Positions 336 to 17,437 of a stretch of DNA of 64,000 bases are shown here, piece after piece. The notes under the pieces were generated by a model. It was not told where the DNA came from. It did not search any database and was given only the letters and a program-made list of their open reading frames with translations. The stretch covers positions 1 through 64,000 of the forward strand of contig NZ_PXUP01000014.1 in assembly GCF_003324185.1 (NCBI RefSeq), in the 5' to 3' direction. Origin of the DNA: Faecalibacterium prausnitzii (GTDB taxonomy: Bacteria > Bacillota > Clostridia > Oscillospirales > Ruminococcaceae). Made by a program: the position numbers and the translations under genes. The first letter of the stretch is position 1, and every line of letters begins with the position of its first letter.

Positions 336-339
336 CGTT

Positions 340-480: not shown

Positions 481-732
481 ATGAACAAACTGCTTTCCTG
501 CCGCTACAACATGGACACCAACCGGGTGGAAGCCCGGTTCGAAGATGAAACTACTCTTGCCATCGACTGCATCGCCATTGAAGACGAGTATGGCAACACT
601 CCGGCGCAGCGGGCAGAGCTGGACTGGCTGCTCTACAACAAGCTCTTGGAGTATGCCCAGCTTGTGCTGGGTGGGGAGATTGAGCGTTATCTCTCGCTTG
701 GTTGCGACCACGGCAGGCTGGAAGATCAATGA
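481..732 (+). CDS. Small hypothetical protein (DUF6061-like)
   Basis: An 83-residue acidic protein starting MNKLLSCRYNMDTNRVEARF. The start is set by a GGAGG about 8 bases upstream of ATG 481. From memory it resembles the small DUF6061-type proteins common in mobile elements of Faecalibacterium and relatives; its function is unknown. There is no signal peptide or membrane segment. It sits alone between the palindromic repeat and a strong bidirectional terminator, convergent with the GH32 gene. Its place just inside the left direct repeat fits element-borne content. Confidence 0.65.
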   Translation: MNKLLSCRYNMDTNRVEARFEDETTLAIDCIAIEDEYGNTPAQRAELDWLLYNKLLEYAQLVLGGEIERYLSLGCDHGRLEDQ

Positions 733-736
733 CATA

Positions 737-784
737 ACAAACACAGCCCCGCTTTGGTGAAGGAGAAGCCAAAGCGGGGCTGTA
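737..784. terminator. Bidirectional terminator
   Basis: A stem of about 15 bp (CAGCCCCGCTTTGG pairing with CCAAAGCGGGGCTG) lies between two convergent genes. It can serve the small protein on the plus strand and the GH32 operon on the minus strand. Confidence 0.8.
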
Positions 785-816
785 TTCAATGAAGGAGAAA
801 TGAGGGGAATATCAGG

Positions 817-2292: not shown

Positions 2293-2316
2293 GGAATCCT
2301 CCAAAGGAAAGAATTC

Positions 2317-3990
2317 TTATGCGTAGTAAGCATCCAGATATTTCTGCATAATGCCCAGATAGTCGGACAGGCCGTAGTCTTCCAGCTTGCTCAGATATTC
2401 GTTCCACTCTGCATCCGTAGTGCCGTTCATGATCCAGTCGGCCTTCTGGGTATTCATGTAGGTCTGCAGATCTGCCTGCAGGTTAGAGACCTGCTCGGTG
2501 TCCTCGCTGCTCATAAAGACATTGGGATAGACATAATCGTTGTTCATATCCGGGGTGTAGATGTCCTTGATCCAATCCAGGCGGTACTGTGCATCGTCCG
2601 GGCAGGTAACGTATACACCATAGTAATCATCCAGAACCGCCAGAGGCCCGCTGACACACTGCGCTTCACGGACTTCCACGGGAGAAGCATCGCCCAGAGG
2701 AGCGTGCTTCAGCATGGGCTCGCCCTTATCGTTGGTGGACAGTTCAAAAATGTTAAAGCCTTCCGCATCGCCGTAGGTACCCCAGTTGTTCTGCGGAGAC
2801 TGGAGGGGCGCGTACATCTGATCCAGCCATGCGCAAACCAGTGCGGGGTTCTCCGCCTTTGCGGTGACAACACATCTGCCGCGGGCAAAGCCGCTGGTGA
2901 AAGAGCCGTTCTGCGGAGTGATATTCCGGGTATCGGCGGTCAGGGCAGGCAGCGGCTCCCAATCGGTCAGGTTGTCAATGTTGGCAACATCCCAGCTGAA
3001 GCAGACACCATAGCGGCCAGCCTTGCCCTTGGAAACATAGGTGGACCACTCCTGCGTGAAGCACTCCGGGTCAATGAGCTTCTCGGCATACAGCTTGTGC
3101 AGCCAGTCCAGACCATCGCGGTAGCCTTGCTGGGTAGCGGCACAGATGACTTTCCGGTCGTTGGTAACGGCAATATGACGGTCTTTGTCTGCATCGCCGT
3201 AGCCTTCGCCAAAGCCATTGATGAGGATGCTGGGGTCCTGATCGCCGTTGTTGACGATGCAGGACATGGGGATGATGTCGCCGTCAATGCCATACTCTGC
3301 CTTGATAGAAGCAGCGTTATCACGGAATGCCATCAGCACCTGCTCAAACTCGTCCACCGTGGTGGGCATCGACAGACCGAGGAAGTTCAGCCACTTGGTA
3401 TTGATGAAGCTCATGTTGCCAATGGTCTGGATGGCGGTCTTTTCTGAGCCGAGCTGCTCGATCCAAGGCAGTGCCCAGATGTGGCCATCGCTGTCGGTGC
3501 ACATGGTGCGGTACTCCGGGTACTGCTCAAAGACCTTCTGGAGATAAGGCATATTGTTGTCAATGTAGTCTTCCAGATTGAGGATGACACCCTGATCTGC
3601 GTAGCGCAGCAGATTGCTGTCGGTAAAATCAGCAGTAAAAACAAAATCCGTCAGGGTGTTGGGGTTGGACATATTCAGGGTGATCTTATCGCTCCACTGG
3701 TCGGACTGGATGGCGGTCCAGTCGATGTGCACATTGGTCTGCTCTTCCAGACGCTTGAAGATGGTGCGGTTGTTCGGCTCGGGTTCGCTGCCCACAGGGA
3801 AGCTGGTCATACCGGTAAAGGTGACCTTTTCGGACAGCGGAAATGTAACGGCACCGGTCGTGTCCACAGCTGCGGCAGCAGAATTACCGCTGCCGGTGGA
3901 TTTGCCGCCGCCACAGGCAGACAGAGCAGCGGCAGAGCCCGCCAGAGCGCAGACCTTGAGGAAGTTGCGGCGAGAAATCAGCTTTTTCAT
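2317..3990 (-). CDS. ABC transporter sugar-binding lipoprotein
   Basis: Extracellular solute-binding protein of the large LplA-like type, 557 residues from ATG 3990. The N-terminus MKKLISRRNFLK continues into a hydrophobic stretch and a lipobox LSACGGG, so Cys near residue 24 is expected to be lipidated. A low-complexity Gly/Ser/Ala linker follows. It should capture the sugar for the two permeases encoded upstream. It lies 24 bases before the GH32 start, giving a transport-then-cleave operon. No ATPase gene is present, which is usual for this subfamily; a shared MsmK-type ATPase elsewhere would energise uptake. Confidence 0.9.
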   Translation of the reverse strand: MKKLISRRNFLKVCALAGSAAALSACGGGKSTGSGNSAAAAVDTTGAVTFPLSEKVTFTGMTSFPVGSEPEPNNRTIFKRLEEQTNVHIDWTAIQSDQWSDKITLNMSNPNTLTDFVFTADFTDSNLLRYADQGVILNLEDYIDNNMPYLQKVFEQYPEYRTMCTDSDGHIWALPWIEQLGSEKTAIQTIGNMSFINTKWLNFLGLSMPTTVDEFEQVLMAFRDNAASIKAEYGIDGDIIPMSCIVNNGDQDPSILINGFGEGYGDADKDRHIAVTNDRKVICAATQQGYRDGLDWLHKLYAEKLIDPECFTQEWSTYVSKGKAGRYGVCFSWDVANIDNLTDWEPLPALTADTRNITPQNGSFTSGFARGRCVVTAKAENPALVCAWLDQMYAPLQSPQNNWGTYGDAEGFNIFELSTNDKGEPMLKHAPLGDASPVEVREAQCVSGPLAVLDDYYGVYVTCPDDAQYRLDWIKDIYTPDMNNDYVYPNVFMSSEDTEQVSNLQADLQTYMNTQKADWIMNGTTDAEWNEYLSKLEDYGLSDYLGIMQKYLDAYYA

Positions 3991-4066
3991 GGTATTTTCT
4001 CCTTTTTTATGTTTCTTTTTTCGTGTAACAGATGAGCGTACCGGCTCATAAAATTCTGGAATATCC

Positions 4067-4972
4067 TCAGCCCTTAATGGAACCAGCCATGATGCCGGCA
4101 TCAAAATACTTCTGGAAGAAGGGATACATCACCAGCAGCGGCAGACTGGAAATAATAATGGTTGCATATTTGAGCAGCTCTGCCATCTTCGCACGTTCGG
4201 CCGTACTCTGGATATCTGCGATCATGCCGGATTCCGGCTGGCTCTGGATCAGGATGGAACGCAGCACCAGCTGCAGCGGCTGCTTCGATGCGCTGTTCAG
4301 GTAGATCATGGCGTCAAAGTAGCTGTTCCACATTGCCACGAACTGCCACAGGGCCAGAACTGCCACCACCGGCATACAGACGGGCAGCAGGATCTTGAAG
4401 AAGTAAAGCATCTCGCTGGCTCCATCCACATCCGCAGCTTCACGCAGCTCACGCGGGATGCCTTGATAATAAGTACGGGCAATGATCATGTTCCACACGC
4501 TGAATGCTCCCGGCAGAATGACCGCCCACATGGAATCCAGCAGACCCAGAGTGTTGATGAGCAGGTAGGTGGGGATCAGACCGCCGCTGAAAAACATCGT
4601 GATCACAAACAAGGTGTTGAAGATCGTTTTGCCTTTGAAGTCCGGCAGCGACATGGGATAAGCGGCAAGCATCGTCACAGCTACCGAGATGATGGTGAAG
4701 ATGATGGAGTAAAGTACCGCGTTCTTGAAGCCGACCCAGATCTGCTTGTCCGAAACGACACGCTGGTAAGCATCCAGACTCCACTTGCTGAAATCAAAGG
4801 AGATGCCCTTGTTTTGCAGAGTGACCGGGTCCATAAAGGACGCGATGACGATGTAGATCATCGGAACGATGATCGCCAGCAGGAACAAGCCCAGAAGTGC
4901 GTAGCCGCAGTACAGGATGATCTTATCTTGTCTGGTGTAGAGGGCCATTTTTGATTTTTTCTGTTTTGCCAT
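4067..4972 (-). CDS. Carbohydrate ABC permease (LplC/YtcP type)
   Basis: Integral membrane permease of 301 residues with about six hydrophobic segments. It has the EAA-type loop of binding-protein-dependent permeases (PRELREAADVDGASE) near residue 187, which contacts the ATPase. ATG 4972 is chosen because AGGAGGGG precedes it. It pairs with the LplB-type permease whose gene ends 13 bases upstream, and feeds the GH32 pathway. Confidence 0.9.
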   Translation of the reverse strand: MAKQKKSKMALYTRQDKIILYCGYALLGLFLLAIIVPMIYIVIASFMDPVTLQNKGISFDFSKWSLDAYQRVVSDKQIWVGFKNAVLYSIIFTIISVAVTMLAAYPMSLPDFKGKTIFNTLFVITMFFSGGLIPTYLLINTLGLLDSMWAVILPGAFSVWNMIIARTYYQGIPRELREAADVDGASEMLYFFKILLPVCMPVVAVLALWQFVAMWNSYFDAMIYLNSASKQPLQLVLRSILIQSQPESGMIADIQSTAERAKMAELLKYATIIISSLPLLVMYPFFQKYFDAGIMAGSIKG

Positions 4973-4985
4973 GGTAAACCCCTCC

Positions 4986-5933
4986 TTACAAGCCCTTGCC
5001 ATCGTTCATTTTGGCAACGACCTTGTTCACTGCGATCAGCAGGATGACGTTGACAACGGTGTTGAACAGACCGACTGCCGTGGAAAAGCTGTAATCGCCG
5101 TCCAACAGGCCCTTTTTATAAACGTACGTTGCAATGATCTCGGCCGTGTTCAGGTTCAGGTCAGTTTGCAGGGCATAGGCCTTTTCAAAACCGATGCTCA
5201 TGATGTTGCCTGCCTGCAGGATGAACTGAATAACGACCATATCCTTAATGGCGGGCCACTCCACTGTCATGATCTGCTGGATCAGGTTTGCGCCGTCGAT
5301 CATCGCAGCTTCCTTCAGATCCTTGCTGGCGTTAGAAAGGGATGCGGTGTACATGATGGATGCCCAGCCGGCACCCTGCCAGATGCCGCTGATGATGTAG
5401 ATGGGGCGGAACGCTTCCGGCAGCGTCATGAAGTTGATGCTGGTGTGAAGCAGGCCGTTCACAGGACCGGTGACACTCAGCAGCACACGGACGATACCGC
5501 ACAGCACGATGACCGAGATGAAGTTGGGCATATACAGCACCAGCTGCACCTTCTGCTTGATCTTCTTGCTCTCGATACGGTTGAGCAGGAATGCCAGCAG
5601 GATGGGGATCGGGAAGCCCCACAGCAGACCGTAGACGCTCAGCTTCAGGGTGTTGATCAGATAGCGCTGGAAGTCCGGCGAGGACATGAAGCGGGTAAAG
5701 TTTTTCAAGCCTACCCACTCGCTGCCCCAGATACCTTTGAAGGGATTGTACTTCTGGAACGCGATCAGCACACCGCCCATGGGAGCGTACTTGAACACCA
5801 GCGTCAGCACCACGGCAGGCAGCAGGAACAACAGGTAAAGCTGCCAATGCCGTTTGATGTAGACCCATGTGTTGTGCAGCTTGCGTTCTGCTGTTAGCAC
5901 AGCCGTTTCCGGCGAGGCCGTCTTTGCTTTCAT
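4986..5933 (-). CDS. Carbohydrate ABC permease (LplB type)
   Basis: First gene of the leftward operon, 315 residues. An N-terminal cytoplasmic stretch (WVYIKRHWQLYLLF enters the first membrane span) and about six membrane segments are visible. The ATPase-contact loop is SKDLKEAAMIDGANL. A GGAGGAGA ribosome site precedes ATG 5933. LplB/YtcP pairs with a large lipoprotein are typical for oligosaccharide or aldouronate import; the adjacent GH32 makes sucrose or fructan the likely cargo here. Confidence 0.9.
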   Translation of the reverse strand: MKAKTASPETAVLTAERKLHNTWVYIKRHWQLYLLFLLPAVVLTLVFKYAPMGGVLIAFQKYNPFKGIWGSEWVGLKNFTRFMSSPDFQRYLINTLKLSVYGLLWGFPIPILLAFLLNRIESKKIKQKVQLVLYMPNFISVIVLCGIVRVLLSVTGPVNGLLHTSINFMTLPEAFRPIYIISGIWQGAGWASIMYTASLSNASKDLKEAAMIDGANLIQQIMTVEWPAIKDMVVIQFILQAGNIMSIGFEKAYALQTDLNLNTAEIIATYVYKKGLLDGDYSFSTAVGLFNTVVNVILLIAVNKVVAKMNDGKGL

Positions 5934-5977
5934 GAATCATTCTCCTCCTTTTTGATTTGCTTGCCGTTTGATTTACG

Positions 5978-6036
5978 TTTTACATTTGCACCTTTGAATT
6001 TTACGTTTTCATCACTTCGCTTGTGCAAATGTAAAA
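5978..6036. promoter_or_regulatory. Inverted 14-bp operator pair downstream of the leftward promoter
   Basis: TTTTACATTTGCAC at 5978-5991 and its perfect reverse complement at 6023-6036 flank 31 bases. Both lie between the leftward transcription start and the first permease gene, suiting a LacI-family roadblock or loop. The GTGCAAAT core recurs near the lacI promoter. Confidence 0.6.
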
Positions 6037-6048
6037 CTCTGTAATTCA

Positions 6049-6077
6049 TTTATACCACGCAAACAAGCGAATGTCAA
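6049..6077 (-). promoter_or_regulatory. Promoter of the sugar uptake operon
   Basis: Read on the minus strand: TTGACA (6077-6072), 17-base spacer, TATAAA (6054-6049). It is a near-consensus sigma-A promoter for the operon running left. Confidence 0.75.
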
Positions 6078-6107
6078 TGATAATTCATGGGATACATAAA
6101 GAAATAC

Positions 6108-6129
6108 TGTGCATTTGTACAGATGCACA
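6108..6129. promoter_or_regulatory. Upstream operator-like inverted repeat
   Basis: TGTGCAT (6108-6114) and ATGCACA (6123-6129) form an inverted repeat sharing the GTGCA core of the other sites in this divergent region. It is a likely extra LacI-family site. Confidence 0.45.
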
Positions 6130-6177
6130 AATCCGAACGTGCGCAAATATGCAAAATGCTGATTTGCATTTTTGCAT

Positions 6178-6206
6178 TTGACTAATTTGTGCATTTGCAC
6201 TATACT
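6178..6206 (+). promoter_or_regulatory. Promoter of the LacI-family regulator with internal operator
   Basis: TTGACT (6178-6183), 17-base spacer, TATACT (6201-6206). The palindrome GTGCATTTGCAC fills 6189-6200 inside the spacer, so repressor binding would shut this promoter. This implies autoregulation. Confidence 0.75.
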
Positions 6207-6266
6207 GGAGTCGCAAAGAATAAGATCCGTCACCAGACTTTATCTATAAAAGAAAGAGGATGACTT

Positions 6267-7322
6267 ATGGCAACCAAGGTCACCATTCAGGATATTGCAA
6301 ACGAGCTGCAGCTTTCCCGCAACACAGTTTCAAAGGCCATCAACAACACCGGTGTGCTGGCAGATGCCACACGGGAAAAGATCCTGCGCAAAGCCGCCGA
6401 AATGGGCTATAAGCAGTTTGCCTATCTGCCGCTGTTTCAGGAAGACGATGCAAAAGCAGCAGAGCCTTTCATTCTGCCGAGTGACAAACGGGAGATCGCC
6501 ATGCTGACGACCCAGTTTCTGAGCAGCTCTCACTTTTCCTCCATGATGCTGGATCGTTTCCAGGCGGAAATCGACCATCTGCACAGCGGCATGACCATTC
6601 ATCGCATTTCTCCCATAGAGCTGAAAGAGAAAAAACTTCCATCTTCTCTCAACATCCAGCGCACAGCCGGCATCATCTGCTTTGAAGTATTCGACTATGA
6701 CTACGCACAGATGCTGTGCGATCTGGATGTTCCGCTGCTGTTTGTAGACACCCCCGTGATGGATATGCGTCCTCCTCTTAAAGCTGACCGCCTTTATATG
6801 GAAAACCGCATTGAGATCCAGAATGTGGTGGCCCACATGGTCCAGCGCGGCAAAAAACGCATCAGCTTTGCGGGGGATAAAAACCACTGTCAGTCCTTCT
6901 TTGAGCGTTATATGGCTTATAAGGATGCAATGGAGCACTTTGGTCTGACAGAAGGCCTGAGCACCTGTGCGATGCCATCTGGACAGCAGAACTATCCGGC
7001 ATCCCTGTACGAAACCATACGTCGGTTCAAAACGATGCCGGATGCCTTTGTCTGCGCCAATGACTTTGTTGCTATGGATCTGGTCAAGGCATTGAATGAG
7101 CTGGGGTATTCGGTTCCCGATGATATCTGGGTCTGCGGCTTCGATGACAGTCAGGAGGCTTCCTACTTTGTCCCCCGTCTGACTTCGATCCATATCCATG
7201 AACAGATCATGGGCTACACCGCTGCCAATCTGCTTATGACCCGCATCGAAGAGCCATCGCTGAACTATCGCACCGTCTATACGGAAACCAACCTGATCCT
7301 GCGCGAATCCACAGGAGATTGA
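6267..7322 (+). CDS. LacI-family transcriptional regulator
   Basis: A 351-residue sugar-responsive repressor. The N-terminal helix-turn-helix and hinge helix (VTIQDIANELQLSRNTVSKAI, residues 4-24) are followed by a periplasmic-binding-protein fold. DAFVCANDFVAMDLVKAL and WVCGFDDS are typical of the effector domain. It is divergent from the sugar uptake operon and shares with it a 333-bp region holding several GTGCAAAT-type operators, so it probably represses both sides in the absence of substrate. It heads the rightward genes to amylosucrase. Confidence 0.92.
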   Translation: MATKVTIQDIANELQLSRNTVSKAINNTGVLADATREKILRKAAEMGYKQFAYLPLFQEDDAKAAEPFILPSDKREIAMLTTQFLSSSHFSSMMLDRFQAEIDHLHSGMTIHRISPIELKEKKLPSSLNIQRTAGIICFEVFDYDYAQMLCDLDVPLLFVDTPVMDMRPPLKADRLYMENRIEIQNVVAHMVQRGKKRISFAGDKNHCQSFFERYMAYKDAMEHFGLTEGLSTCAMPSGQQNYPASLYETIRRFKTMPDAFVCANDFVAMDLVKALNELGYSVPDDIWVCGFDDSQEASYFVPRLTSIHIHEQIMGYTAANLLMTRIEEPSLNYRTVYTETNLILRESTGD

Positions 7323-7339
7323 GCGAAAGGAGAACCCCC

Positions 7340-7990
7340 ATGCGTGACCTGTGCAATACAGACAAGCCGCTGTTTGCTGTGCTGACGAAATTGACTTACA
7401 GTGCTTACCTGAACATCTTATGGCTCGTGTGCAGCCTGCCCATCGTTACCATAGGGGCTTCTACGACCGCCTTGTTCTACGTCACGCTCAAAATGGCGGA
7501 AGATCGGGACGATGGTCTGACCCGGATGTTTTTTAAGGCGTTCCGGGAAAATTTCAAGCCTGCCACAAAACTCTGGCTTATCCTGCTGGCAGTCGGCAGT
7601 TTCCTGGCTGCGGATGGCTTTGTGCTGCGCCGAATGTGGAGCGAAAACATTTTCTGGACGCTGCTCACTGCAACGCTTATTGGTGCGGCAGTTCTGTACG
7701 GCATCGTTCTGCTGTATGCCTTTCCTCTGCTGGCACGGTTTGAAAACACCACCTTCGGCATCCTGAAAACAGCGCTTCTCGTGGGTGTCCGGTATCTGTT
7801 TTGCACCCTGCTGATGGCGGCGATCTATGGCATCATGGGGTACGTCATTGTGTTTGTGTTCACACCTGCATTCCTGCTGGGCATGGGTTTCTGCGCCATG
7901 CTCTGCTCCTTTCTGATGCTTCGGATCCTCTATCTGATCGGTGGAGACCCTGATGCAGTACACGAGGAATACGACCATGACAAAAACTGA
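7340..7990 (+). CDS. YesL-like DUF624 membrane protein
   Basis: A 216-residue protein with about four to five membrane segments and the family signature near the N-terminus (SAYLNILWLVCSLPIVTIG, then TTALFYVTLKM). ATG 7340 follows AAAGGAG; an earlier in-frame start lacks a better site. DUF624/YesL proteins sit beside LplB/YtcP-type sugar ABC genes in Firmicutes, and their role is unknown. It begins 17 bases after the lacI stop, in one operon. Confidence 0.85.
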   Translation: MRDLCNTDKPLFAVLTKLTYSAYLNILWLVCSLPIVTIGASTTALFYVTLKMAEDRDDGLTRMFFKAFRENFKPATKLWLILLAVGSFLAADGFVLRRMWSENIFWTLLTATLIGAAVLYGIVLLYAFPLLARFENTTFGILKTALLVGVRYLFCTLLMAAIYGIMGYVIVFVFTPAFLLGMGFCAMLCSFLMLRILYLIGGDPDAVHEEYDHDKN

Positions 7991-8594
7991 CCGGGATACG
8001 CTCCGCTCCCTCCATGGGCGCAAAAAGTGGGAGCACATCTGGGCATATTACAAGCTGCCCATTGCGATCGTACTCATCGTCGTCTATATCCTTGGCTATA
8101 CAGCCTACCGCCATGTGACGAAAAAAGAGGATGTGCTTTACCTTGGTCTGGTAAATATCACTGCCGGGTCTGATCTGACGGAACAGCTTACCACCGGCTT
8201 TGCCGAGGCGCAGGGTCTGACCAAAAAGCAACAGGTCGATCTGCTGTCCGGCTTGCTGCTCAGCGAGAGCGAACACGCAGAGGAGCAGTATGTATATGCT
8301 TCGGAGATGAAGCTGCTGGGTGCAGTCAGTGCCCAGCGGTTAGATGTTGTTCTGATGGACGAATATGCACGGGATCGACTGTTGGCTGATGATTATTTTC
8401 TCGATCTGCGGACGTTGGATGCGTCTTTCCGTGCACTGTCGGGTCTGAACGCCGGTGGAACCGTGCTGGATATTTCGGACACGCCGTTTGTCAGGCAGGC
8501 AGGTTTTTCTGGCAGGGTCTATCTTGGGGTGGTGCAGAATGCACCGCACCCGGAGCGTACAGCCGCTTACATTCATTATCTGTTCCAGCGGTGA
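7977..8594 (+). CDS. Membrane-anchored hypothetical protein
   Basis: 205 residues from ATG 7977, preceded by GAGGAA and overlapping the YesL-like gene by 14 bases; ATG 7953 is an alternative. One membrane segment (residues about 28-45, IAIVLIVVYILGYTAY) leaves a long C-terminal domain on one side of the membrane. I do not recognise a family. Tight overlap suggests it works with the YesL-like protein in the sugar locus. Confidence 0.7.
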   Translation: MTKTDRDTLRSLHGRKKWEHIWAYYKLPIAIVLIVVYILGYTAYRHVTKKEDVLYLGLVNITAGSDLTEQLTTGFAEAQGLTKKQQVDLLSGLLLSESEHAEEQYVYASEMKLLGAVSAQRLDVVLMDEYARDRLLADDYFLDLRTLDASFRALSGLNAGGTVLDISDTPFVRQAGFSGRVYLGVVQNAPHPERTAAYIHYLFQR

Positions 8595-8630
8595 TCGTTG
8601 GGTTTCACATCAAGAATAAGGAGAAGTATC

Positions 8631-9563
8631 ATGGACATTTTAACGATTGGTGAAGTTTTGATCGACCTGACCCAGACCGGCAAGGATGCGCGCGGCATCC
8701 CTCAATTTGCCGCAAACCCCGGCGGTGCCCCGGCAAATCTGGCTGTGGCTGCTTCCAGACTGGGCGCACAGACCGCCTTTATCGGCAAGGTGGGTGCGGA
8801 TGCCTTTGGCCGCTACCTGAAAGCGGTTCTGGCAGAGAACAAGGTGGATGTTTCCGGCATGGCGGTGGATGCAGACCACCCCACCACCATGGCGGTGGTC
8901 TCGGTGGATGCCACCGGTGAGCGGGATTTCAGCTTCTACCGCAGTGCCAACGCTGATGTGATGCTGTGCAAAGAGGACATTTCGGACGAGGCTCTGAAAG
9001 CTGCCAAAATCGTCCACTTTGGTTCTGTCAGCCTGACCGCCGACCCCTCCCGTACCGCTACGCTGGACGCTGCCGCCCGTGCCAAAAAGCTGGGTGCTAC
9101 CATCACCTACGACCCCAACTACCGTGCCAACCTCTGGAAGAGCAAAGAGGATGCCATTGCCCAGATGAAAGCACCCCTGCCGCTGGTGGATATCTTGAAA
9201 GTGTCCGATGAAGAGCTGCCCCTGCTCACCGGCACCACCGACTGTGAAAGCGGCACGGCACAGCTGGCACAGAACGGCATCCGGCTGATTTTTGTCACCT
9301 TGGGTGCAAACGGCGTATTCTACCGCTTTGGGGACAAGACCGGCCATGTGGCTGGCGTTCCCTGCAAGGTGGGTGACACCAACGGCGCAGGCGATACCTT
9401 CTTTGGGGCTGCCCTGTCCAAGCTCTGCAAGGAGAAGCTGGACACCCTGACTGTGGACAAGCTGGAAGGCATTCTGGCCTTTGCCAACAAGGCAGCCAGC
9501 ATCACCACCAGCCGGCATGGTGCTATCCCCGCCATGCCCACCCTTGCGGAAGTGGAGGGCTGA
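8631..9563 (+). CDS. Fructokinase (PfkB family)
   Basis: Phosphorylates fructose with ATP in the cytoplasm. It has 310 residues from ATG 8631 (AAGGAG upstream). PfkB signatures are visible: GGAPANLAVAASRLG near residue 37 and the C-terminal DTNGAGDTFFGAAL near 250, whose Asp is the catalytic base. Both the GH32 enzyme and amylosucrase release fructose, so fructose is the natural substrate here. It is followed after 3 bases by the amylosucrase gene. Confidence 0.88.
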   Translation: MDILTIGEVLIDLTQTGKDARGIPQFAANPGGAPANLAVAASRLGAQTAFIGKVGADAFGRYLKAVLAENKVDVSGMAVDADHPTTMAVVSVDATGERDFSFYRSANADVMLCKEDISDEALKAAKIVHFGSVSLTADPSRTATLDAAARAKKLGATITYDPNYRANLWKSKEDAIAQMKAPLPLVDILKVSDEELPLLTGTTDCESGTAQLAQNGIRLIFVTLGANGVFYRFGDKTGHVAGVPCKVGDTNGAGDTFFGAALSKLCKEKLDTLTVDKLEGILAFANKAASITTSRHGAIPAMPTLAEVEG

Positions 9564-9566
9564 ACC

Positions 9567-11396
9567 ATGGCAGTAAAACAGGAATTTGCGTCCCGATTTG
9601 CCAAGCACAAGGACGAACTGGAATGGCTGTTCATGGAACTGTACCACAACCGGGAAGGGCTGGAGGTTCTGGAGCGGGAGATGGCAGAAGCCTACAACGC
9701 CCGCAGCGCCGAGCTGAAAGCACTGGACAAGGCACGCTCTGCCGACCCGGAGTGGTACAAGCGGGGCAATATGTTCGGCATGACCATGTATACCGACCTC
9801 TTTGCCGGAAATTTGAAAGAGCTGGCAAAGAAGCTGCCCTATCTCAAGGAGCAGAAGCTGACCTATCTGCACCTGATGCCCCTTTTGCAGATGCCCCACC
9901 CCCACAACGACGGCGGCTATGCAGTGGAGGACTTCGACACCGTAGACCCTGCCCTTGGCACCAACAAAGATCTGGAAAACCTGACCCGTGAACTGCGGAA
10001 AGCAGGCATCAGCCTGTGTCTGGATTTTGTCATGAACCACACCGCCAGCACCCACCGCTGGGCCATGGCGGCAAAGGCGGGCGACCCGTGGTTTCAGGCT
10101 TATTACCATCTCTATGACGACCGCACCATCCCCGACCAGTACGAGCAGACTGTGCCGCAGGTGTTCCCCAACACCGCGCCCGGCAACTTTACATGGTGCG
10201 AGGAGATGCACAAGTGGGTGCTGACCACCTTCCACGACTACCAGTGGGACCTGAACTACGCAAACCCGGCGGTGTTCGTGGACATGACCAAGAGCATCCT
10301 GCACCTTGCAAATCTCGGTGTGGAAGTGTTCCGCATTGACGCAGTGCCCTATATCTGGAAGCAGCTGGGCACCACCTGCCGCAATCTGCCACAGGTGCAC
10401 ACCATTGTGCGGATGCTGCGCATGGTGCTGGAATGCGTCTGCCCCGCGGTCATCCTCAAGGGCGAGGTGGTCATGGCTCCCAAGGAGCTGGCGGCATACT
10501 TCGGCACCCCGGAAAAGCCGGAATGCCATATGCTCTACAACGTATCTACCATGGTCAACCTGTGGGGCGCCCTTGCCAGCCGGGACACCCGGCTGCTGAA
10601 GGCGCAGCTGGATGCCCTGCACGCCCTGCCGGACAACTGCTGGTTCGTGAACTATCTGCGCTGCCACGATGACATCGGCTGGGGTCTGGACGAAGCGGTG
10701 GAAAACCGGCTTGGCATCGACCCGCAGAAGCACAAGGAATACCTGTACCACTTCTACGAGGGCAATTTCCCCGGCAGCTGGGCAAAGGGCGAGCTGTACA
10801 ACTACGACCCCGCCACCGGCGATGCCCGAAGCTGCGGCACCACCGCCAGCCTGTGCGGCGTGGAGCAGGCACTGGAAAAAGACGACAAAACCGCACTGGA
10901 CTACGCTGTGAAGCGCGACCTGCTGCTGCACACTGCTATGGCATTTTTGCAGGGCTTCCCCATGCTGAACTGCGGGGACGAAATTGCACAACTCAATGGC
11001 TGGGACTACAAAAACGACCCTGACCGTGTGGAGGACAGCCGCAATCTGCACCGTACAAAATTCAACTGGGAGGACGCAAAGCAGCGCACCCGGAAGGGCA
11101 CGCTGCAAAACCAGCTGTGGCAGGGCATGGAGCAGCTGCGCCAAATGCGTGCAGACCCCTGCTTTGCCCCGGATGCGTGGGTGACCACATGGGACAGCCA
11201 CAACCCCGGCGTGCTGGCGCTGGTGCGCAAGCGCGGTGAGGAAACGCTGGTGGGACTGTTCAACTTTACCGAGTACCCGGCAGGGGCAAGTCTGGACGCT
11301 CTGGGCGGCGAGTATCACGCCCCGGAGGGCACTTCCGTCTGGCTGGCGGATGTGGAGCTGGAGCCGTACCAGGCAATGTTGGTAAAAAACAAATAA
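9567..11396 (+). CDS. Amylosucrase-like GH13 enzyme
   Basis: Transfers glucose from sucrose onto alpha-1,4-glucan and releases fructose. The 609-residue protein resembles amylosucrases along its length: helical N-terminal domain, DLFAG, TYLHLMPL, DGGYAV, then a (beta/alpha)8 barrel. Catalytic residues are Asp258 (VFRIDAV), Glu300 (LKGEVV) and Asp368 (CHDDIGW). The 42-residue Asp-Glu spacing equals that of the Neisseria enzyme as I recall it. Sucrose phosphorylase or hydrolase is a weaker alternative. With fructokinase directly upstream, it turns imported sucrose into storage glucan plus fructose 6-phosphate. It is the last gene of the locus. Confidence 0.85.
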   Translation: MAVKQEFASRFAKHKDELEWLFMELYHNREGLEVLEREMAEAYNARSAELKALDKARSADPEWYKRGNMFGMTMYTDLFAGNLKELAKKLPYLKEQKLTYLHLMPLLQMPHPHNDGGYAVEDFDTVDPALGTNKDLENLTRELRKAGISLCLDFVMNHTASTHRWAMAAKAGDPWFQAYYHLYDDRTIPDQYEQTVPQVFPNTAPGNFTWCEEMHKWVLTTFHDYQWDLNYANPAVFVDMTKSILHLANLGVEVFRIDAVPYIWKQLGTTCRNLPQVHTIVRMLRMVLECVCPAVILKGEVVMAPKELAAYFGTPEKPECHMLYNVSTMVNLWGALASRDTRLLKAQLDALHALPDNCWFVNYLRCHDDIGWGLDEAVENRLGIDPQKHKEYLYHFYEGNFPGSWAKGELYNYDPATGDARSCGTTASLCGVEQALEKDDKTALDYAVKRDLLLHTAMAFLQGFPMLNCGDEIAQLNGWDYKNDPDRVEDSRNLHRTKFNWEDAKQRTRKGTLQNQLWQGMEQLRQMRADPCFAPDAWVTTWDSHNPGVLALVRKRGEETLVGLFNFTEYPAGASLDALGGEYHAPEGTSVWLADVELEPYQAMLVKNK

Positions 11397-11483
11397 GCAA
11401 AACGAGCCCATCTGGCTCTCTCTTTTCGCCAAAGTTTTCAGAGCATTTTCTCGCAATCTGCCGAAAGTAGCGTGTTCTCAAAA

Positions 11484-11590
11484 GTTCGCGCTTGCGCAGC
11501 GCAGCGGAGCAATGAAAGCCCCAGTGGGGCTTTTAAGCGACAGAACGGTCTTGCGCAGCAAGATGGAGGGACTAAGTCCCGACAAGTTCA
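11484..11590 (+). repeat. Palindromic repeat element, copy 2
   Basis: 102 bp between two AAGTT-containing boundaries, with hairpins AGCCCCAGTGGGGCT, CTTGCGCAGCAAG and GGGACTAAGTCCC. It lies immediately upstream of a promoter. The homologous module at 22500-22610 runs straight from CTCAAAAGTT to GTTGACAC without it, so this is a filled site. Confidence 0.8.
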
Positions 11591-11592
11591 CG

Positions 11593-11621
11593 TTGACACA
11601 ACTCGATTTTTGTGGTAATCT
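11593..11621 (+). promoter_or_regulatory. Promoter of the structured module, copy A
   Basis: TTGACA (11593-11598), 17-base spacer, TAATCT (11616-11621). The spacer is nearly identical to that of the promoter at 22580-22608. Confidence 0.7.
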
Positions 11622-11627
11622 ATCCCA

Positions 11628-11985
11628 AAAATTTAATATAACATATTTACTTAGAGTTTCAGCTCGGCTCCCGAAGGAGCCGGAGCAAGTTTTTAACTTT
11701 CTATCGCTACATAGCAAACCCGAACCAAGGCCATCCCGGAAGGGATGGTCAGGTTCAGGTTGTTGTGTGGCGATTTTTTATTGCCAAATCCAGCACCGCA
11801 CCTTGACAACCGCATGACCGTCTGCATGGGATACACGGCGATGACCCCGCAAGGGAGAGCCGGGAAACGCCGCCGAGAGGGGGCAGGAAAACCATGTGGG
11901 GAGAACGGCTAAACGTTGATTCCTCAGTTACCAGAAAACAATGTGGTCAAATTGACCACATTGTTTTTCTGTAACGCCAGTGAAA
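11628..11985 (+). ncRNA. Candidate structured RNA of mobile elements, copy A
   Basis: A non-coding stretch homologous to 22615-22965. Its flanks are conserved, but two hairpins differ in sequence while staying paired: CGGCTCCCGAAGGAGCCG here, and CCATCCCGGAAGGGATGG here. A conserved block (CCGCATGACCGTCTGCATGG to GGGGAGAACGGC) follows, then a long stem around GTGGTCAAATTGACCAC. It fills the gap between amylosucrase and the zinc-ribbon gene. The RNA family is not recognised; it could instead be a long leader. Confidence 0.45.
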
Positions 11986-12564
11986 GGAGGGTCATCTCCA
12001 TGTATATGACAAACGAAAAATGGGAGCAGAACAATCAGGATTATTTGAAAGAATCGTATGAGGAAACGGGTTTTACCGCCGGAGGATACGCCGTCCGCAA
12101 ACTTATCTGCCGCGGCTGCGGTCGGGTGTTCTACACCACCATCTACACCAAGAAATACTGTCACAGCTACTGGTGCGGCAATCAGGCCAACAATCGGCGG
12201 CAGCGGGAATACCGCCAAATGCGCCGTCAGGATTTAGTATGCCAGTGCTGCGGTGAAAAATTCACACCCAAACGTGCAGATGCCCGCTATTGCAGCAATG
12301 CCTGTCGGCAAAAAGTCTATCGAAAACGTGTTACAGATGCTGCAAGTGCTCAAAATGAGCACTTGGTTAAGCGTAACGCATCTGCCAAATAAAACTCAGT
12401 CCCTCACAAATGAGGGAACAGAAATTCATCGACCTGTTACGGAAAACCAAGTGGTCAAAATGAGCACATCGTTTTTCCGTAACGCCTCAAGGCCTGTTGA
12501 AAATCAGGTTGCCAAGATGACAACCTGATTCTACCCGTAACGGAATCAGCGGGCCAAAATGGCC
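11937..12564. repeat. Family of five hairpins with CAAAATG-type loops
   Basis: Hairpins with different stems but like loops: GTGGTCAAATTGACCAC (near 11943), AGTGCTCAAAATGAGCACT (near 12345), GTGGTCAAAATGAGCAC (near 12451), CAGGTTGCCAAGATGACAACC (near 12504) and CGGGCCAAAATGGCCCG (near 12550). The first and third extend into long stems with GTTAC ends. They crowd the 390-base gap before the relaxase; that gap contains no convincing gene. Confidence 0.6.
12000..12392 (+). CDS. Zinc-ribbon protein of a mobilisable element
   Basis: 130 residues from ATG 12000 (GGAGGG upstream). Two cysteine clusters are seen: CRGCGRVFYTTIYTKKYC with a further Cys, and CQCCGEKFTPKRADARYCSNAC. Each suits one zinc ion, and the Arg/Lys-rich spacing suggests nucleic-acid binding. 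It lies between the structured module and the relaxase and is probably an accessory or regulatory protein of mobilisation. The last codons overlap a hairpin (AAGTGCTCAAAATGAGCACTT). Confidence 0.7.
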   Translation: MYMTNEKWEQNNQDYLKESYEETGFTAGGYAVRKLICRGCGRVFYTTIYTKKYCHSYWCGNQANNRRQREYRQMRRQDLVCQCCGEKFTPKRADARYCSNACRQKVYRKRVTDAASAQNEHLVKRNASAK

Positions 12565-12782
12565 CGTTGAAAAAGCCGGACGAGCTGGTGGGCAGGGATT
12601 CGCAAATCTTTGACCGCCAGCTTGACCGGAGCAAGAGTGCAGAGAGTGCAGCTCTTTGCCCCAGTGATATGATGCTGTGCGTCATATCCTACTGGGTATT
12701 ATCTGGCGCAAAAAGGCGGCAGATCCAGCAGCTTCGCTGCTGCGCTTTCCCCGCCAAGCTGTTGAAACGGAGGGATGTCTAT

Positions 12783-14018
12783 CTGAAATTAACACGACAC
12801 AACGGACGAGCCGGAACCCACGGCACTTACAACCCCAAGCACAACGACCGCAGTTTCAACCTTGCCAACAGTGAGCACATCGACCCGGAACGAGCCAAGG
12901 GCAACATCTACTGGGACTGCTTTCACGGTTTCCGTTCGGCTCTTGACCCACAAGACCCGGACGATCTGGCGGCAACCTTCTCGGACGTAGAACGGCAGTT
13001 CTACGAAACCCACTACACGGCTTTTGTGGAAAGCCAGAACGAGCGTAACGCCAAGATCCGGCACACAGAGCGCAACCGCTCCATTCCCGACCTGCTGTCC
13101 AGCCGCAAGACCTGCCCGGAAGAGACCATCTATCAACTTGGAACGCTGGATGAACACGCTTCGGCAGAGGACTTGCTGAGCGTCGTCACAGAGTTCATCG
13201 AGAAGTTCAAAGCCAAGTATGGCGACCATGTTCATGTGCTGGACTGGGCACTGCATCTGGACGAAAGCACACCCCACATCCACGAGCGTCATGTGTTCGA
13301 CTGCGAGAACAAGTACGGCGAGGTTGCTCCCCAGCAGGAAAAGGCACTGGAAGCGTTGTGTTTCGACCTGCCTGACCCGGACAAGTCCCTCAGCCGCCGG
13401 AACAATCGCAAAATCTCCTTCGATGCCGCCTGTCGAAAGATGCTGTTCGAGATCGCCAAGCGGCACGGTCTGGAATTGGAGGAGGAAGCGGAGTACGGCA
13501 ACCGCAAATATCTGGAAAAGCAGGACTTCATTCTTGCCAAGCAGAAGGAGCAGCTTGCCGCCCAGCAGAGCAAGCTGGACGAGTTGACCCTGAAAGTTTC
13601 GGACATGAAGACCCTGCTGGAGGATGTTTCGGCTGCAGCCTACGACAAGGCGGTGGAGGTCGTGACGGACGTGGTGCGCACCGAGACCCGCAAGGAAGAT
13701 ATGCGGATGATCGAGGACACAAAAAAGTGGGTGCTGTCCCCGGAACGCAAGGCTCCGCAGGCCACGAGAGAGTACGCCGCCCATCGGTTGGACACCGTGC
13801 TGGACAAGTTTCTCAAGACCATGCAGACCACTGCTGCCCGCTTGCAGGAGAAGCTGCTGAAGCCGGAAGTTCGGCAGAAAGGCAAAGAACAGGTCAAGGA
13901 GAAAGCACGGGATTCCGTTCTGCAACTGCTGAACCGCTTGCAGGCGGAACAGACCCAGCGGAAGCCCGGAGAGCAGCATACTGCGGAGAAATCAGAAACA
14001 CGAGGTGATGTTTATTGA
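12783..14018 (+). CDS. MobV/Pre-type relaxase
   Basis: Nicks the transfer origin to start conjugal mobilisation. The conserved part starts KLTRHNGRAGTHGTYNPKH. A histidine motif HLDESTPHIHERHV lies near residue 157, as in Mob/Pre relaxases, and the C-terminal third is coiled-coil-like. An open frame runs upstream to 12567, but the only well-spaced start is CTG 12783, eight bases after GGAGGG; the ATG at 12775 opens a three-codon frame ending TGA. A one-base deletion from an original ATG could explain this. Its stop overlaps the next start (TTGA), implying coupling. Confidence 0.75.
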   Translation: MKLTRHNGRAGTHGTYNPKHNDRSFNLANSEHIDPERAKGNIYWDCFHGFRSALDPQDPDDLAATFSDVERQFYETHYTAFVESQNERNAKIRHTERNRSIPDLLSSRKTCPEETIYQLGTLDEHASAEDLLSVVTEFIEKFKAKYGDHVHVLDWALHLDESTPHIHERHVFDCENKYGEVAPQQEKALEALCFDLPDPDKSLSRRNNRKISFDAACRKMLFEIAKRHGLELEEEAEYGNRKYLEKQDFILAKQKEQLAAQQSKLDELTLKVSDMKTLLEDVSAAAYDKAVEVVTDVVRTETRKEDMRMIEDTKKWVLSPERKAPQATREYAAHRLDTVLDKFLKTMQTTAARLQEKLLKPEVRQKGKEQVKEKARDSVLQLLNRLQAEQTQRKPGEQHTAEKSETRGDVY

Positions 14019-15364
14019 GCAAAGAAGCCAACGAAGAACGCACTCCACGAACCGTTGGAGATGTGAAGGAAATGCTCACCAAGCACTCCAACGGAGAGAT
14101 CCAGCGGACGATTCAGAACTGCATCACGATTTTGCAGAACGACCATGTGCTGGCCGATGCCATTCGACTGAACCTGTTGAGCGAGCGCATCGACATCGTA
14201 AAGTCTGTGGGCTGGCCCCGCTCCGGCAAGACGCTGAGCGACACCGACATGAAGTATATCCTGCGTCGGATGGAGAAATACGGCATTTCCAGCGAAAAGA
14301 AAATCGAATCTGCCATCCGCATCGTTGCCAACGAGAACCGCTATCATCCCATCCGAGATTACCTGAACAGCCTAAAATGGGATGGAACAGAACGGATAGC
14401 CCACGTCCTGCACCACTTCCTCGGTGCTGCGGAGGACGAATACACTTGCGAAGCTATGAAAATTTTCCTGCTGGGAGCCATTAAGCGCGTGTTCCAGCCG
14501 GGATGCAAATTTGAAACCATGCTCTGTCTGGTGGGCGGGCAAGGCACAGGAAAGTCCAGCTTTTTTCGGCTGTTGGCGGTCAAGGATGAATGGTTCTCGG
14601 ACGACCTGCGGCGGCTGGACGACGACAACGTGTACCGAAAGCTGCAGGGGCACTGGATCATTGAAATGTCGGAGATGATCGCCACCGCCAATGCCAAGAG
14701 TATCGAGGAGATCAAAAGTTTTCTCAGTAAACAGAAGGAAACCTATAAAGTCCCCTACGAGACCCATCCTGCCGACCGTCTGCGCCAGTGCATCTTTGCT
14801 GGCACGACCAATCGGCAGGATTTTTTGCCCCGTGACCGCACAGGCAACCGCCGCTTCATCCCCGTCCCGGTGGATGCGGAACTGGCCGAGGTGCACATTC
14901 TGGACAACGAGGAAGATTCCCGTGCCTATATCGACCAGCTCTGGGCGGAAGCCATGACCATCTACAACAGCGGTAACTACAAGCTGGCGTTCAGCCCCGC
15001 CATGCAGGAAACCCTGCAAGCCCATCAGCAGGACTTCATGCAGGAGGATGCACAGGCTGGCATGATCTACGCCTTTTTGGAGGACTACACGGGTGAACGA
15101 GTGTGTTCCAAGCAGCTCTATGCGGAAGCACTGGGCAACACCAACATCCCGGCAGAGTGGGAGACCCGTGCTATCTGCGAGATCATGAACACGGGTATTT
15201 CGCGCGGCGATATCCAAGGCTGGCAGGCGCACAAGACCGCCAAGCGTTACCCGAAGTACGGCGTTCAGAAAGGCTGGGAGCGCGTAACCAGCCCCGAAAC
15301 CGGGGCTGAAGATTTCTCCGAAATAACGGACGCAGAAGCCAAGCAGCTGGGCTTTCCCTTCTGA
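14015..15364 (+). CDS. VapE-family (virulence-associated E) ATPase
   Basis: A 449-residue primase-helicase-like ATPase of phages and mobile elements. Walker A is GGQGTGKSS near residue 173; WIIEMSEM near 210 suits Walker B; TNRQDFLPRDRTGNRRF fits the arginine-finger region. It starts at TTG 14015 with GAGGTG eight bases upstream and overlaps the relaxase stop. It probably aids replication of the excised circle. The array of GGTTAC repeats lies directly downstream. Confidence 0.82.
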   Translation: MSKEANEERTPRTVGDVKEMLTKHSNGEIQRTIQNCITILQNDHVLADAIRLNLLSERIDIVKSVGWPRSGKTLSDTDMKYILRRMEKYGISSEKKIESAIRIVANENRYHPIRDYLNSLKWDGTERIAHVLHHFLGAAEDEYTCEAMKIFLLGAIKRVFQPGCKFETMLCLVGGQGTGKSSFFRLLAVKDEWFSDDLRRLDDDNVYRKLQGHWIIEMSEMIATANAKSIEEIKSFLSKQKETYKVPYETHPADRLRQCIFAGTTNRQDFLPRDRTGNRRFIPVPVDAELAEVHILDNEEDSRAYIDQLWAEAMTIYNSGNYKLAFSPAMQETLQAHQQDFMQEDAQAGMIYAFLEDYTGERVCSKQLYAEALGNTNIPAEWETRAICEIMNTGISRGDIQGWQAHKTAKRYPKYGVQKGWERVTSPETGAEDFSEITDAEAKQLGFPF

Positions 15365-15372
15365 CGGACACC

Positions 15373-15556
15373 GGTTACACGTCTGGTTACAGATTCGGTT
15401 ACGCCCCAGTTACAGCCCAAAAACCGCATGACTGCTGCGTTTTTCTCTTTCTGTAACCATGTAACCTTAAAAAGAGAAGAAAAAGTATAAAGCCCACCGG
15501 ATGCCCTGTGTGCAGAAAAAGAGAGTTTTCCTGCCCGGTTACAGGCGTTCGGTTAC
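15373..15556 (+). repeat. GGTTAC repeat array (iteron-like)
   Basis: GGTTAC or AGTTAC starts at 15373, 15385, 15397 and 15408 (steps of 12, 12 and 11), with reverse copies GTAACC at 15453 and 15461, and direct copies at 15537 and 15551. Helical-turn spacing suggests a protein-binding array such as a replication origin or a Xis/Int accessory region. Confidence 0.5.
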
Positions 15557-15576
15557 AAGGAATTGGAGGTCTGCCT

Positions 15577-15864
15577 ATGAAGGAAGTTCGCGTTTGCGAA
15601 GCAATGAAGTCTCCGGTGGAGACTTCAAGCGACGGAACGATCTTGCATCAGCAAGATGGAGGGACCAAGTCCCGACAAGTTCCGATTTGGGAAAAGAGCA
15701 ATCTGACGCTGGAAGAAGCTGCGGCTTACTCCGGCATTGGCATCAACAAGCTGCGTTCATTATCAGATAACGAACATTGCCAGTTCGTGCTGTGGGTGGG
15801 TTCCAAGCGGCTCATCAAGCGGCGCAAGCTGGATGAATATACGGAGCGAATGTACTCGCTTTGA
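15577..15864 (+). CDS. xis: Excisionase (Tn916 Xis-like) with in-frame repeat insertion
   Basis: 95 residues from ATG 15577 (GGAGGT upstream). Residues 35-95 (VPIWEKSNLTLEEAAAYSGI and onward to a basic C-terminus) match the layout of Tn916 Xis, a small winged-helix protein that directs excision. Residues 4-34 are encoded by palindromic element copy 3: 93 bases, 31 codons, no stop and no frame change. Removing it would leave MKEVPIWEKS, close to known Xis starts. The integrase gene follows after 111 bases. Confidence 0.82.
   Translation: MKEVRVCEAMKSPVETSSDGTILHQQDGGTKSRQVPIWEKSNLTLEEAAAYSGIGINKLRSLSDNEHCQFVLWVGSKRLIKRRKLDEYTERMYSL
15586..15684 (+). repeat. Palindromic repeat element, copy 3 (inside xis)
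   Basis: Same architecture as copies 1 and 2, but with substituted stems that still pair: AGTCTCCGGTGGAGACT, CTTGCATCAGCAAG and GGGACCAAGTCCC. GTT at 15586 and GTT at 15679 mark the ends, 93 bases apart. Confidence 0.8.
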
Positions 15865-15975
15865 AAATGTCCCGGATAATTTTCAAAACGTCTTGCAGAG
15901 AATGGCGTATCTGTGGTACTATGAACACAGAACAACGCTCTTTTCTGCACCGCGATGTAGAAAGGAGCAACGCTC

Positions 15976-17238
15976 ATGGCAACAACTCAGAATACGAAAC
16001 GCAAAGACAAGGCGCGTGTGGTTCTCCGCAAAGGGGAATCCCAGCGCAAAGATGGCAAGTACGATTTCCGTTGGACTTCCCCGGATGGCAAGCGGCACTC
16101 TATTTATGCCGCGACCTTAGAGGAACTTCGGGAAAAGGAAAACGACATTCAGCGAGATTCGCTGGAAGGCATCAAGGCAGAAGCACGGTACGTCACTCTG
16201 AACGATGTGTTCACCCTGTGGGCAAAGGTCAAGCGTGGTCTGAAGGACAACACCTTTCAGAATTATCGGTACCTTTATCGGCAGTTCGTGGAGCCGGATT
16301 TCGGCAAATCGAAGGTGTCTGCGCTCAAGAAGTCGGACGTGAAGCAGTTCTACAACACGTTGGCGGATGAGCGGGGCTTGCAGATCTCTACGATTGACAG
16401 CGTACACACGGTTTTGCATCAGGTGCTGGACATGGCGGTGGATGATTGCTATCTGCGGAGCAATCCCTCGGACAATGTTCTGCGGGAGCTGAAAAAGGCA
16501 CATCAGTTTGAAACCAACCGCCGTAAGGCACTGACCGTAGCAGAGCAGAATCTGTTGCTGTCCTACCTCTCCAAAACGCCGAAGTACCAGCACTGGTACC
16601 CGATTTTTGCGGTCATGCTGGGAACGGGCTTGCGCGTAGGAGAAGCCACTGGCCTGCGCTGGTGCGATGTGGATTTAGAGGAAGGCACGATCTCCGTCAA
16701 CCACACGCTGGTCAACTACGACCACCGTGAGAACAACGGCGGCAGGAAGGGCTGCTACTTCAACTGCCACTCGCCCAAAACAAAGGCTGGTGTCCGCACT
16801 GTTCCGATGATGGACTTCGTGAAAGAAGCCTTTGAAAAGGAACGTGCCTATCAGGAAGAAGCAGAGATCCATTGCACGGTAACGGTGGACGGTTACACGG
16901 ACTTTATCTTTGTCAACCGCTTTGGTGAGTGCCAGCATCAGGGAACGCTGAACAAGGCCATTCGGCGCATCATCCGGGACTGCAACGATGAAGTGCTGGC
17001 GAAGAATCCGAACAGCACCGTACTCCTGCCGCGTTTCAGCTGCCACACCCTGCGGCATACCTTCACGACCCGGATGTGCGAAGCGGGCGTGAACATCAAG
17101 GTGATTCAGGATGCGCTGGGACATTCGGATATTTCCACGACCTTGAACATCTATGCGGATGTGACCAAGGAACTGCGGAAGTCTGAATTTGAAAATCTTG
17201 ACCGTCAGTTCGCACAGTGGAAAGACCCTGAAGAATAA
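15976..17238 (+). CDS. int: Tyrosine integrase (Tn916 Int-like)
   Basis: A 420-residue site-specific recombinase. An N-terminal arm-binding domain (RKGESQRKDGKYDFRW, then SIYAATLEELREKE) resembles Tn916 Int. It is followed by a core-binding domain and the catalytic domain: Arg in TGLRVGEATGLRW, HTLRH, LGHSDISTT and the Tyr in LNIYADV. ATG 15976 follows AAAGGAG. TACGCCA repeats begin ten bases after the stop and recur near the left end, which fits Int arm sites. Confidence 0.93.
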   Translation: MATTQNTKRKDKARVVLRKGESQRKDGKYDFRWTSPDGKRHSIYAATLEELREKENDIQRDSLEGIKAEARYVTLNDVFTLWAKVKRGLKDNTFQNYRYLYRQFVEPDFGKSKVSALKKSDVKQFYNTLADERGLQISTIDSVHTVLHQVLDMAVDDCYLRSNPSDNVLRELKKAHQFETNRRKALTVAEQNLLLSYLSKTPKYQHWYPIFAVMLGTGLRVGEATGLRWCDVDLEEGTISVNHTLVNYDHRENNGGRKGCYFNCHSPKTKAGVRTVPMMDFVKEAFEKERAYQEEAEIHCTVTVDGYTDFIFVNRFGECQHQGTLNKAIRRIIRDCNDEVLAKNPNSTVLLPRFSCHTLRHTFTTRMCEAGVNIKVIQDALGHSDISTTLNIYADVTKELRKSEFENLDRQFAQWKDPEE

Positions 17239-17247
17239 AATAAAGCA

Positions 17248-17291
17248 TACGCCAAATACGCCATACGCCATTTACGCCAATTCATACGCCA
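17248..17291 (+). repeat. Five TACGCCA repeats downstream of int
   Basis: Heptamers start at 17248, 17257, 17264, 17273 and 17285. They are the densest cluster of a motif also present at 173-190 and 17757-17775, and are probably integrase arm sites. Confidence 0.55.
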
Positions 17292-17407
17292 AACAATACA
17301 GTTCGGATAAAGGCTTGTGTAGAGATGTAAATGGAATGGCAAAATTCAACCCTTGCGGTGTAGAGTAGTATCAAGAAATAAAGGCTTATAACTGCTCGTC
17401 GATGACA

Positions 17408-17437
17408 TCCCCACGATGAAGCCGATTGAGCAGTAAA
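17408..17437 (+). repeat. 30-bp direct repeat, right copy (candidate att site)
   Basis: Exact copy of 48-77. In one frame it reads PTMKPIEQ then stop, so it could come from the 3' end of a gene used as an integration target. This is unconfirmed. Confidence 0.6.

Follow-up and report, generated by a model that had tools for sequence, protein, structure and literature searches.

A 93-nucleotide palindromic repeat inserted in frame in the excisionase gene of a Faecalibacterium prausnitzii integrative element, with relatives in four other genes

The window is a stretch of 64,000 nucleotides of Faecalibacterium prausnitzii DNA that begins with a 17.4-kb integrative element (48-17437). The element is bounded by two attachment repeats of 30 bp on the + strand (48-77 and 17408-17437), whose identity is as would be left by a recent integration. 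Its sugar cargo (GH32, an ABC permease, a LacI regulator, a PfkB kinase and an alpha-amylase-family enzyme) precedes genes for a VapE-like protein, Xis and Int. The xis gene (15577-15864, + strand; PF09035, 1y6u) encodes a Tn916-type excisionase of 95 amino acids with 31 inserted codons near the N-terminus, and the tyrosine integrase gene of the same mobile element lies at 15976-17238 (+ strand; PF00589, PF02920). GGAGG at 15565-15569 (+ strand), 7 nt before the ATG of xis, is the likely ribosome-binding site.

The insert in xis is a palindromic element of 93 nt (RVCEAMKSPVETSSDGTILHQQDGGTKSRQV) at 15589-15681 on the + strand, the limits being set by the comparison of filled and empty alleles and sliding by up to 5 nt. 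The left junction is AAGTT (15584-15588, + strand), the last bases of the target, which also forms the left junction of a second copy at 11487. AAGTT recurs at the right end (15677-15681, + strand), where sequence comparison allows it to be the end of the element or duplicated target. Because of this 5-nt direct repeat, residues 4-34 and residues 5-35 are equivalent descriptions of the insert. A sequence-only reading had proposed that residues 4-34 come from a 93-base, stop-free element and that the remainder starts as Xis proteins normally do, and both proposals are borne out, the first by the alleles described below, in which the frame is open. Pfam Tn916-Xis (PF09035) matches residues 33-90 of the ORF (E = 2.1e-20), and Tn916 Xis (PDB 1y6u) aligns to residues 28-90 (E = 1.6e-9). 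The winged-helix core aligns with that of Tn916 Xis, but this protein has 31 extra residues before PIW, which in 1y6u lies at most about 10 residues from the start of the chain.

We compared 17 close xis alleles. Nine, in eight genomes, are filled and eight are empty at one exact site; a close match at G029:C1:2645398 and an empty allele with stops (L027) lie outside this comparison. Eight filled alleles, in eight genomes and on three xis backgrounds, have an insert of 93 nt and keep the frame without a stop. The ninth (L053, in G029) has lost one base of the insert, leaving 92 nt, and the frame is gone, so that Xis may be dispensable there. Filled alleles read ...GAAGTT, then the insert CGCGTTTGCG...CGACAAGTT, then CCGATTTGG, with small variants. 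Empty alleles of backgrounds A and B read ATGAAAGA(T/C)GTC joined directly to CCGATTTGG, with variants in which the sequence after the site is CCTATTTGG (L019 and L020) or which read ATGAAGGATGTC (L031), and those of background C read GTGAA(A/G)GAAGTT joined directly to CCGATTTGG. Loss rather than gain of the segment fits poorly with the empty A/B xis alleles and with the empty CHC2 and relaxase alleles discussed below, which differ from what precise deletion would leave; the C-type xis is compatible with either.

The sequence-only reading had allowed that all close homologues might carry the segment. Besides the eight close Faecalibacterium alleles without it, the segment is lacking from 75 of the best 80 (of 125) Xis relatives in genome_contigs, most of the 75 coming from other Clostridia; the five that carry the repeat are all Faecalibacterium. 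It is exceedingly improbable that the segment is ancestral Xis sequence lost elsewhere, a reading for which only the shared site speaks, given these relatives, a Tn916 Xis match that begins at query residue 28, and members of the same DNA family that occur elsewhere in different frames and on the opposite strand.

An empty allele (L030) was found in the window's own genome. The attachment core is found at both ends of contig C36 (L382) and close to the end of contig C14 (L383), and contigs C14, C36 and C7 overlap at their ends by about 76 bp each (all G000). These overlaps point to a tandem arrangement of two elements, the 17.4-kb element of the window with its filled xis and a 7.8-kb element whose C-type xis is empty. 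With tandem elements at one attachment site, filled and empty alleles could probably meet in one cell.

A start of translation downstream of the segment, also allowed for by the sequence-only reading, is contradicted by the gene. GGAGG and ATG lie intact upstream and are common to the empty A/B alleles, and after the insert the first in-frame ATG, GTG or TTG of xis is a GTG at residue 71, within the conserved domain. Start codons in frame do occur within the insert (ATG 15604, GTG 15616 and TTG 15643), where translation might possibly start. These codons, the hairpins directly after the ATG and the position of another copy directly upstream of a TTGACA sequence would all suit an element whose main role is as mRNA structure behind the start codon, Xis translation then beginning inside it. 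We consider this very unlikely in view of the intact and shared upstream signals, and it is inapplicable to the inserts in the CHC2 and relaxase genes, which are internal.

In the predicted structure of Xis the insert is probably a disordered tail ahead of the winged helix. The AlphaFold model built on a 17-row alignment has an overall pLDDT of 72 and pTM of 0.51. Averaged over blocks of ten residues, pLDDT is 83-90 in residues 41-90, and the four blocks before them have 46, 48, 51 and 61. This model supersedes an eight-row one of poor quality (pLDDT 57), which placed strands of low confidence in the insert.

Conservation of the insert at the protein level is weak, rather than of the ordinary kind that the sequence-only reading had named as a point against insertion. 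Its dN/dS is about 0.64, compared with 0.15-0.24 in the rest of xis (six distinct inserts, few changes). Between the A pair of filled alleles the insert has three nonsynonymous changes and one synonymous, which gives no sign of constraint on the tail as protein, and the rest of the gene has two and four respectively. The C pair has no nonsynonymous and two synonymous changes outside the insert, again small numbers. The relaxed ratio in the insert and the frameshift in one of nine filled alleles might mean that insertion inactivates Xis, the filled alleles being early pseudogenes and the element being stuck or using another Xis, which the second element, probably in tandem, could supply in trans. 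We think this unlikely, because eight of the nine filled alleles keep an open frame, the few changes in the rest of xis lean to the synonymous, and the attachment repeats of the window are identical.

Scans of spanning frames, together with follow-up, gave four further genes in which the repeat lies in frame, and each has homologues without the insert. The insert length is 93 nt in xis, in the gene of a CHC2 zinc-finger protein (PF01807) and in that of an OppF-like ABC ATPase (PF00005), 90 nt net in that of a MobA/VirD2-type relaxase (PF03432) and 90 nt in that of a YaiI/YqxD protein (DUF188, PF02639). The CHC2 gene has four complete filled alleles and one truncated downstream. In 23 close places residues 1-84 and 116-231 abut (with an overlap of 3 nt in one), and in one further place (G028) there is a 26-nt gap. 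The element is read there in a different frame from that in xis, and its dN/dS of 0.11 comes from four nonsynonymous and ten synonymous pair-summed changes, too few to interpret. In the relaxase gene it lies in the opposite orientation, and of the 28 loci with both flanks (30 fetched) three are filled and 25 empty.

The OppF-like protein of G003 begins MPENRDV(RVCEAAN...RQV)LLEV, with the insert in parentheses, and 29 of the 30 homologues read, paralogues included, lack it (42 matches in all). These homologues have N-termini of variable length, and the size of the gain is therefore taken from the element itself. The YaiI/YqxD protein of G015, the only match in that genome, begins MTI(RVCEAMN...RQV)LIDADG; among 16 sequences this one is filled, 13 close and one distant are without the insert and one is unreadable. 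In the three N-terminal cases the last codons of the element (RQV) replace native residues before the core. The xis and relaxase genes belong to integrative elements, and the CHC2 gene probably does so too. With two of the five genes, and probably a third, from mobile elements, an effect of the insertions on mobility is possible.

Some insertions do harm. A large serine recombinase is broken by the element, which puts a stop into the upstream frame. Six copies occupy this one site in six genomes, and five of the six were flagged in the spanning-frame scan; the Pfam assignment comes from L065 alone. The recombinase is split near 1501-1588 in L065, with counterparts in L037, L125, L131, L172 and L203.

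The repeat was found in 14 of 31 Faecalibacterium genomes with a 109-nt query, copy numbers being lower bounds. In a sample of 297 genomes from the family a 93-nt query matched two, each of them Faecalibacterium. We collected 147 distinct matches in the loci examined, 141 of at least 84 nt, and the 137 copies with flanks represent 90 sites. There is a short form of about 93 nt and a long form of about 103 nt in which the left end is longer. Some copies form head-to-tail tandem arrays with a period near 104 nt (L122, L098, L048 and L126). As the sequence-only reading had said, the element is intergenic elsewhere in the window, where two relatives of the long form, both longer than the insert in xis, lie on the + strand at 231-334 (ends approximate) and 11487-11588, the latter directly upstream of TTGACA. 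A paralogous region of the window near 22571 has the same flanks as the copy at 11487-11588 and is an empty site.

The element is hairpin-rich, again as had been proposed. The sequence 15584-15682 (+ strand) folds at -40.9 kcal/mol with z = -4.8, and none of 200 shuffles was as stable. The predicted fold contains hairpin 1 (15605-15627; 10 bp, loop of 3), hairpin 2 (15640-15657; 7 bp, loop of 4) and hairpin 3 (15661-15673; 5 bp, loop of 3), all on the + strand. A further hairpin 0, TTCGC-GTTT-GCGAA (15587-15600, + strand), can be read from the sequence across the left junction and is absent from the predicted + strand fold. On the family alignment 17 pairs are predicted, comprising hairpins 1 and 3, which covary across the family, and two outer pairs; hairpin 2 is not among them. 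Ten of the 17 have two-sided changes in a set of 94 copies with a single copy from each site group, compared with a mean of 3.1 and a maximum of 6 after shuffling. Standard pairs fill 98.9% of the cells of these pairs in the same copies, against a shuffled mean of 94.3%.

Terminal inverted repeats were not seen by eye, the left end GCGTTTGCGAAGC and right end CCCGACAAGTT not being inverted copies. Nor did we see by eye a constant target duplication among the junctions inspected. AAGTT flanks both sides of the copies in xis and at 11487, and no constant duplication occurs in the CHC2 or relaxase genes. The triplet before GCGTTTGCG at the five coding sites is TTC, but TTT in C-type xis. A comparison of five loci with Rfam gave no match over a copy of the element at E <= 1, and a search of plasmids for the repeat yielded nothing. 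A Y1 transposase (PF01797) occurs in 11 of the 31 genomes, seven of the 14 carriers of the repeat lack it (G003, G008, G013, G014, G015, G017 and G028), and no link between the two was established among these 31. We looked for a mobilizing enzyme for the repeat and found none; the inserting enzyme would act in trans.

All five coding sites are occupied by the short form. At the 39 short-form sites outside the five genes the length is divisible by 3 in 24, and a mean of 3.3 of the six frames is open (3 of 141 copies were unparsed in these frame statistics). The chance that a random insertion into coding sequence is in frame and open is about 0.37 for the short form (39 sites) and 0.21 for the long form (46 sites). 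With such a chance per insertion, five genes with the repeat in frame do not require selection for coding. Coding compatibility is built into the short form, so survivorship can explain the rest without selection for the peptide. In 17 of 20 site groups the flanks diverge more than the element, a count weakened by tandem-array artefacts in some groups and by the bias of picking copies by similarity. Strong nucleotide constraint on the element as a general rule was rejected on these grounds and because its divergence at the serine recombinase site (3.4%) is close to that of the nearest flanks (2.5% and 3.6%).

Each site holds its own lineage of the repeat, and sharing follows the site and not the genome. 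Copies at the same site have an identity of 0.971 (116 pairs), compared with 0.837 between sites. Gene conversion between copies within a genome was rejected, as the identity of copies at different sites is 0.837 both within genomes (705 pairs) and between them (9028 pairs).

The relaxase alleles point to movement of the insert. The three inserts differ at 0-1 of 93 nt and the flanking synonymous sites at 22-26%, and in every filled allele at least one flank lies nearer to an empty allele than to the other filled alleles. Upstream, L227 is 0.9% from the empty L238 and 9-14% from the filled alleles, and downstream L228 is 3.4% from the empty L230. Against this, the downstream flank of L227 is nearest to the filled L226, at 5.8% compared with 6.3% for the closest empty allele. 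Near-identical inserts between flanks that are diverged and ungrouped indicate that the insert moved between alleles. AU tests of a single clade of filled alleles gave p = 0.037 upstream and p = 0.006 downstream for the relaxase (21 rows kept, the seven distant relaxases dropped).

The signal from CHC2 and xis is of the same kind but less clear. The AU test for CHC2 (13 rows kept, three distant loci dropped, and L148 retained among the empties despite its own gap) was not significant upstream (p = 0.118) and gave p = 0.0005 downstream. The latter value depends on L138 alone, which stands apart while the other three of the four filled alleles group. For xis A/B upstream the test was not significant with 300 nt (p = 0.069) or 140 nt (p = 0.086). 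Downstream, seven of the eight frame-keeping filled xis alleles are nearest an empty allele and one is tied. Upstream this holds for three of the eight, and of the six A/B filled alleles five have other filled alleles as their nearest neighbours. The filled L010 differs from the empty L017 by 1.4% upstream and 1.7% downstream, with three substitutions in the seven bases before the insert, where all six A/B filled alleles agree.

These flank comparisons indicate that the insert has entered several alleles. Passage between alleles of related integrative elements is supported, not proven, and would be explained most simply by short-tract allelic recombination. The bold explanation is site-specific homing, in which a seated copy would duplicate into the corresponding site of further alleles, carrying along hardly any flanking DNA. 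It would make the repeat like a miniature protein-coding intron, with no need of splicing because it is 31 codons long. We regard homing as distinctly unlikely. The near-identical relaxase inserts between diverged flanks make testable how such repeats reach new sites.

The insert in xis is very probably a non-autonomous palindromic mobile element, an analogue of the Rickettsia palindromic elements (RPE), that is tolerated as a tail of the Xis protein. As the filled and empty alleles show, one copy of the short form inserted right after the start of xis. With a length that is a multiple of three and an open frame, it would give Xis an N-terminal tail of 31 residues and leave the winged-helix domain in place. 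Probably this tail lacks structure and has a neutral or mildly regulatory effect, and Xis would still work. The insert could survive because coding sequence can largely accommodate the short form, which often has 93 or 90 nt, with about three open frames and an RQV end.

The sequence-only reading had likened the element to RPE, which holds as an analogy in that five unrelated genes contain the repeat in frame. The cited passages on RPE and the Wolbachia palindromic repeats describe dispersed, stem-loop-rich elements of about 100-150 bp, both intergenic and in frame within unrelated genes, and give insertion in gmk, the sole case tested, as neutral or slightly detrimental (PMC10969869, PMC3767692, PMC2229807). 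The Faecalibacterium repeat is likewise dispersed and palindromic, slightly shorter at 93-104 nt, and in frame in xis, CHC2, relaxase, OppF-like and YaiI genes that have empty homologues. The likeness drawn here is one of description. The repeat comes from another phylum and shows by eye no terminal inverted repeat, in contrast to the 12 bp tabulated for RPE (PMC2229807, Table 1). It also differs in using three frames over both strands, in having hosts such as xis and relaxase (probably also CHC2) that are integrative-element genes, and in its near-identical relaxase inserts in alleles with diverged flanks.

The enterobacterial ERIC and RU-1, RU-2 and RU-3 are also small mobile repeats with open frames that are fused to ORFs, often at their ends (PMC2759123). 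For ERIC a published table lists terminal inverted repeats as well as target duplications (PMC2229807), neither of which is clear here, and two of the present insertions lie inside a protein of which both halves are kept. We view the Faecalibacterium repeat as another family of in-frame palindromic repeats, a phenomenon already known from Rickettsia, Wolbachia and enterobacteria. REP/BIME elements, which have RAYT (Y1) transposases, are dispersed hairpins that form tandem arrays and have no clear target duplication. The present repeat shares these features, but has about 93-104 nt and three or four hairpins, and the Y1 transposase is missing from half of its carriers. It differs from a MITE in that no terminal inverted repeats are seen by eye. 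Our literature search, with subscription journals mostly outside its reach, found no described Faecalibacterium repeat of this kind.

In this family, from a common genus of the human gut, the same genes occur both with and without the insert. With such natural pairs, tolerance of the insert, its translation and its effect on fitness become testable. A copy of the repeat also occurs in the Faecalibacterium prausnitzii phage FP_Toutatis (MG711466, 53788-53885).
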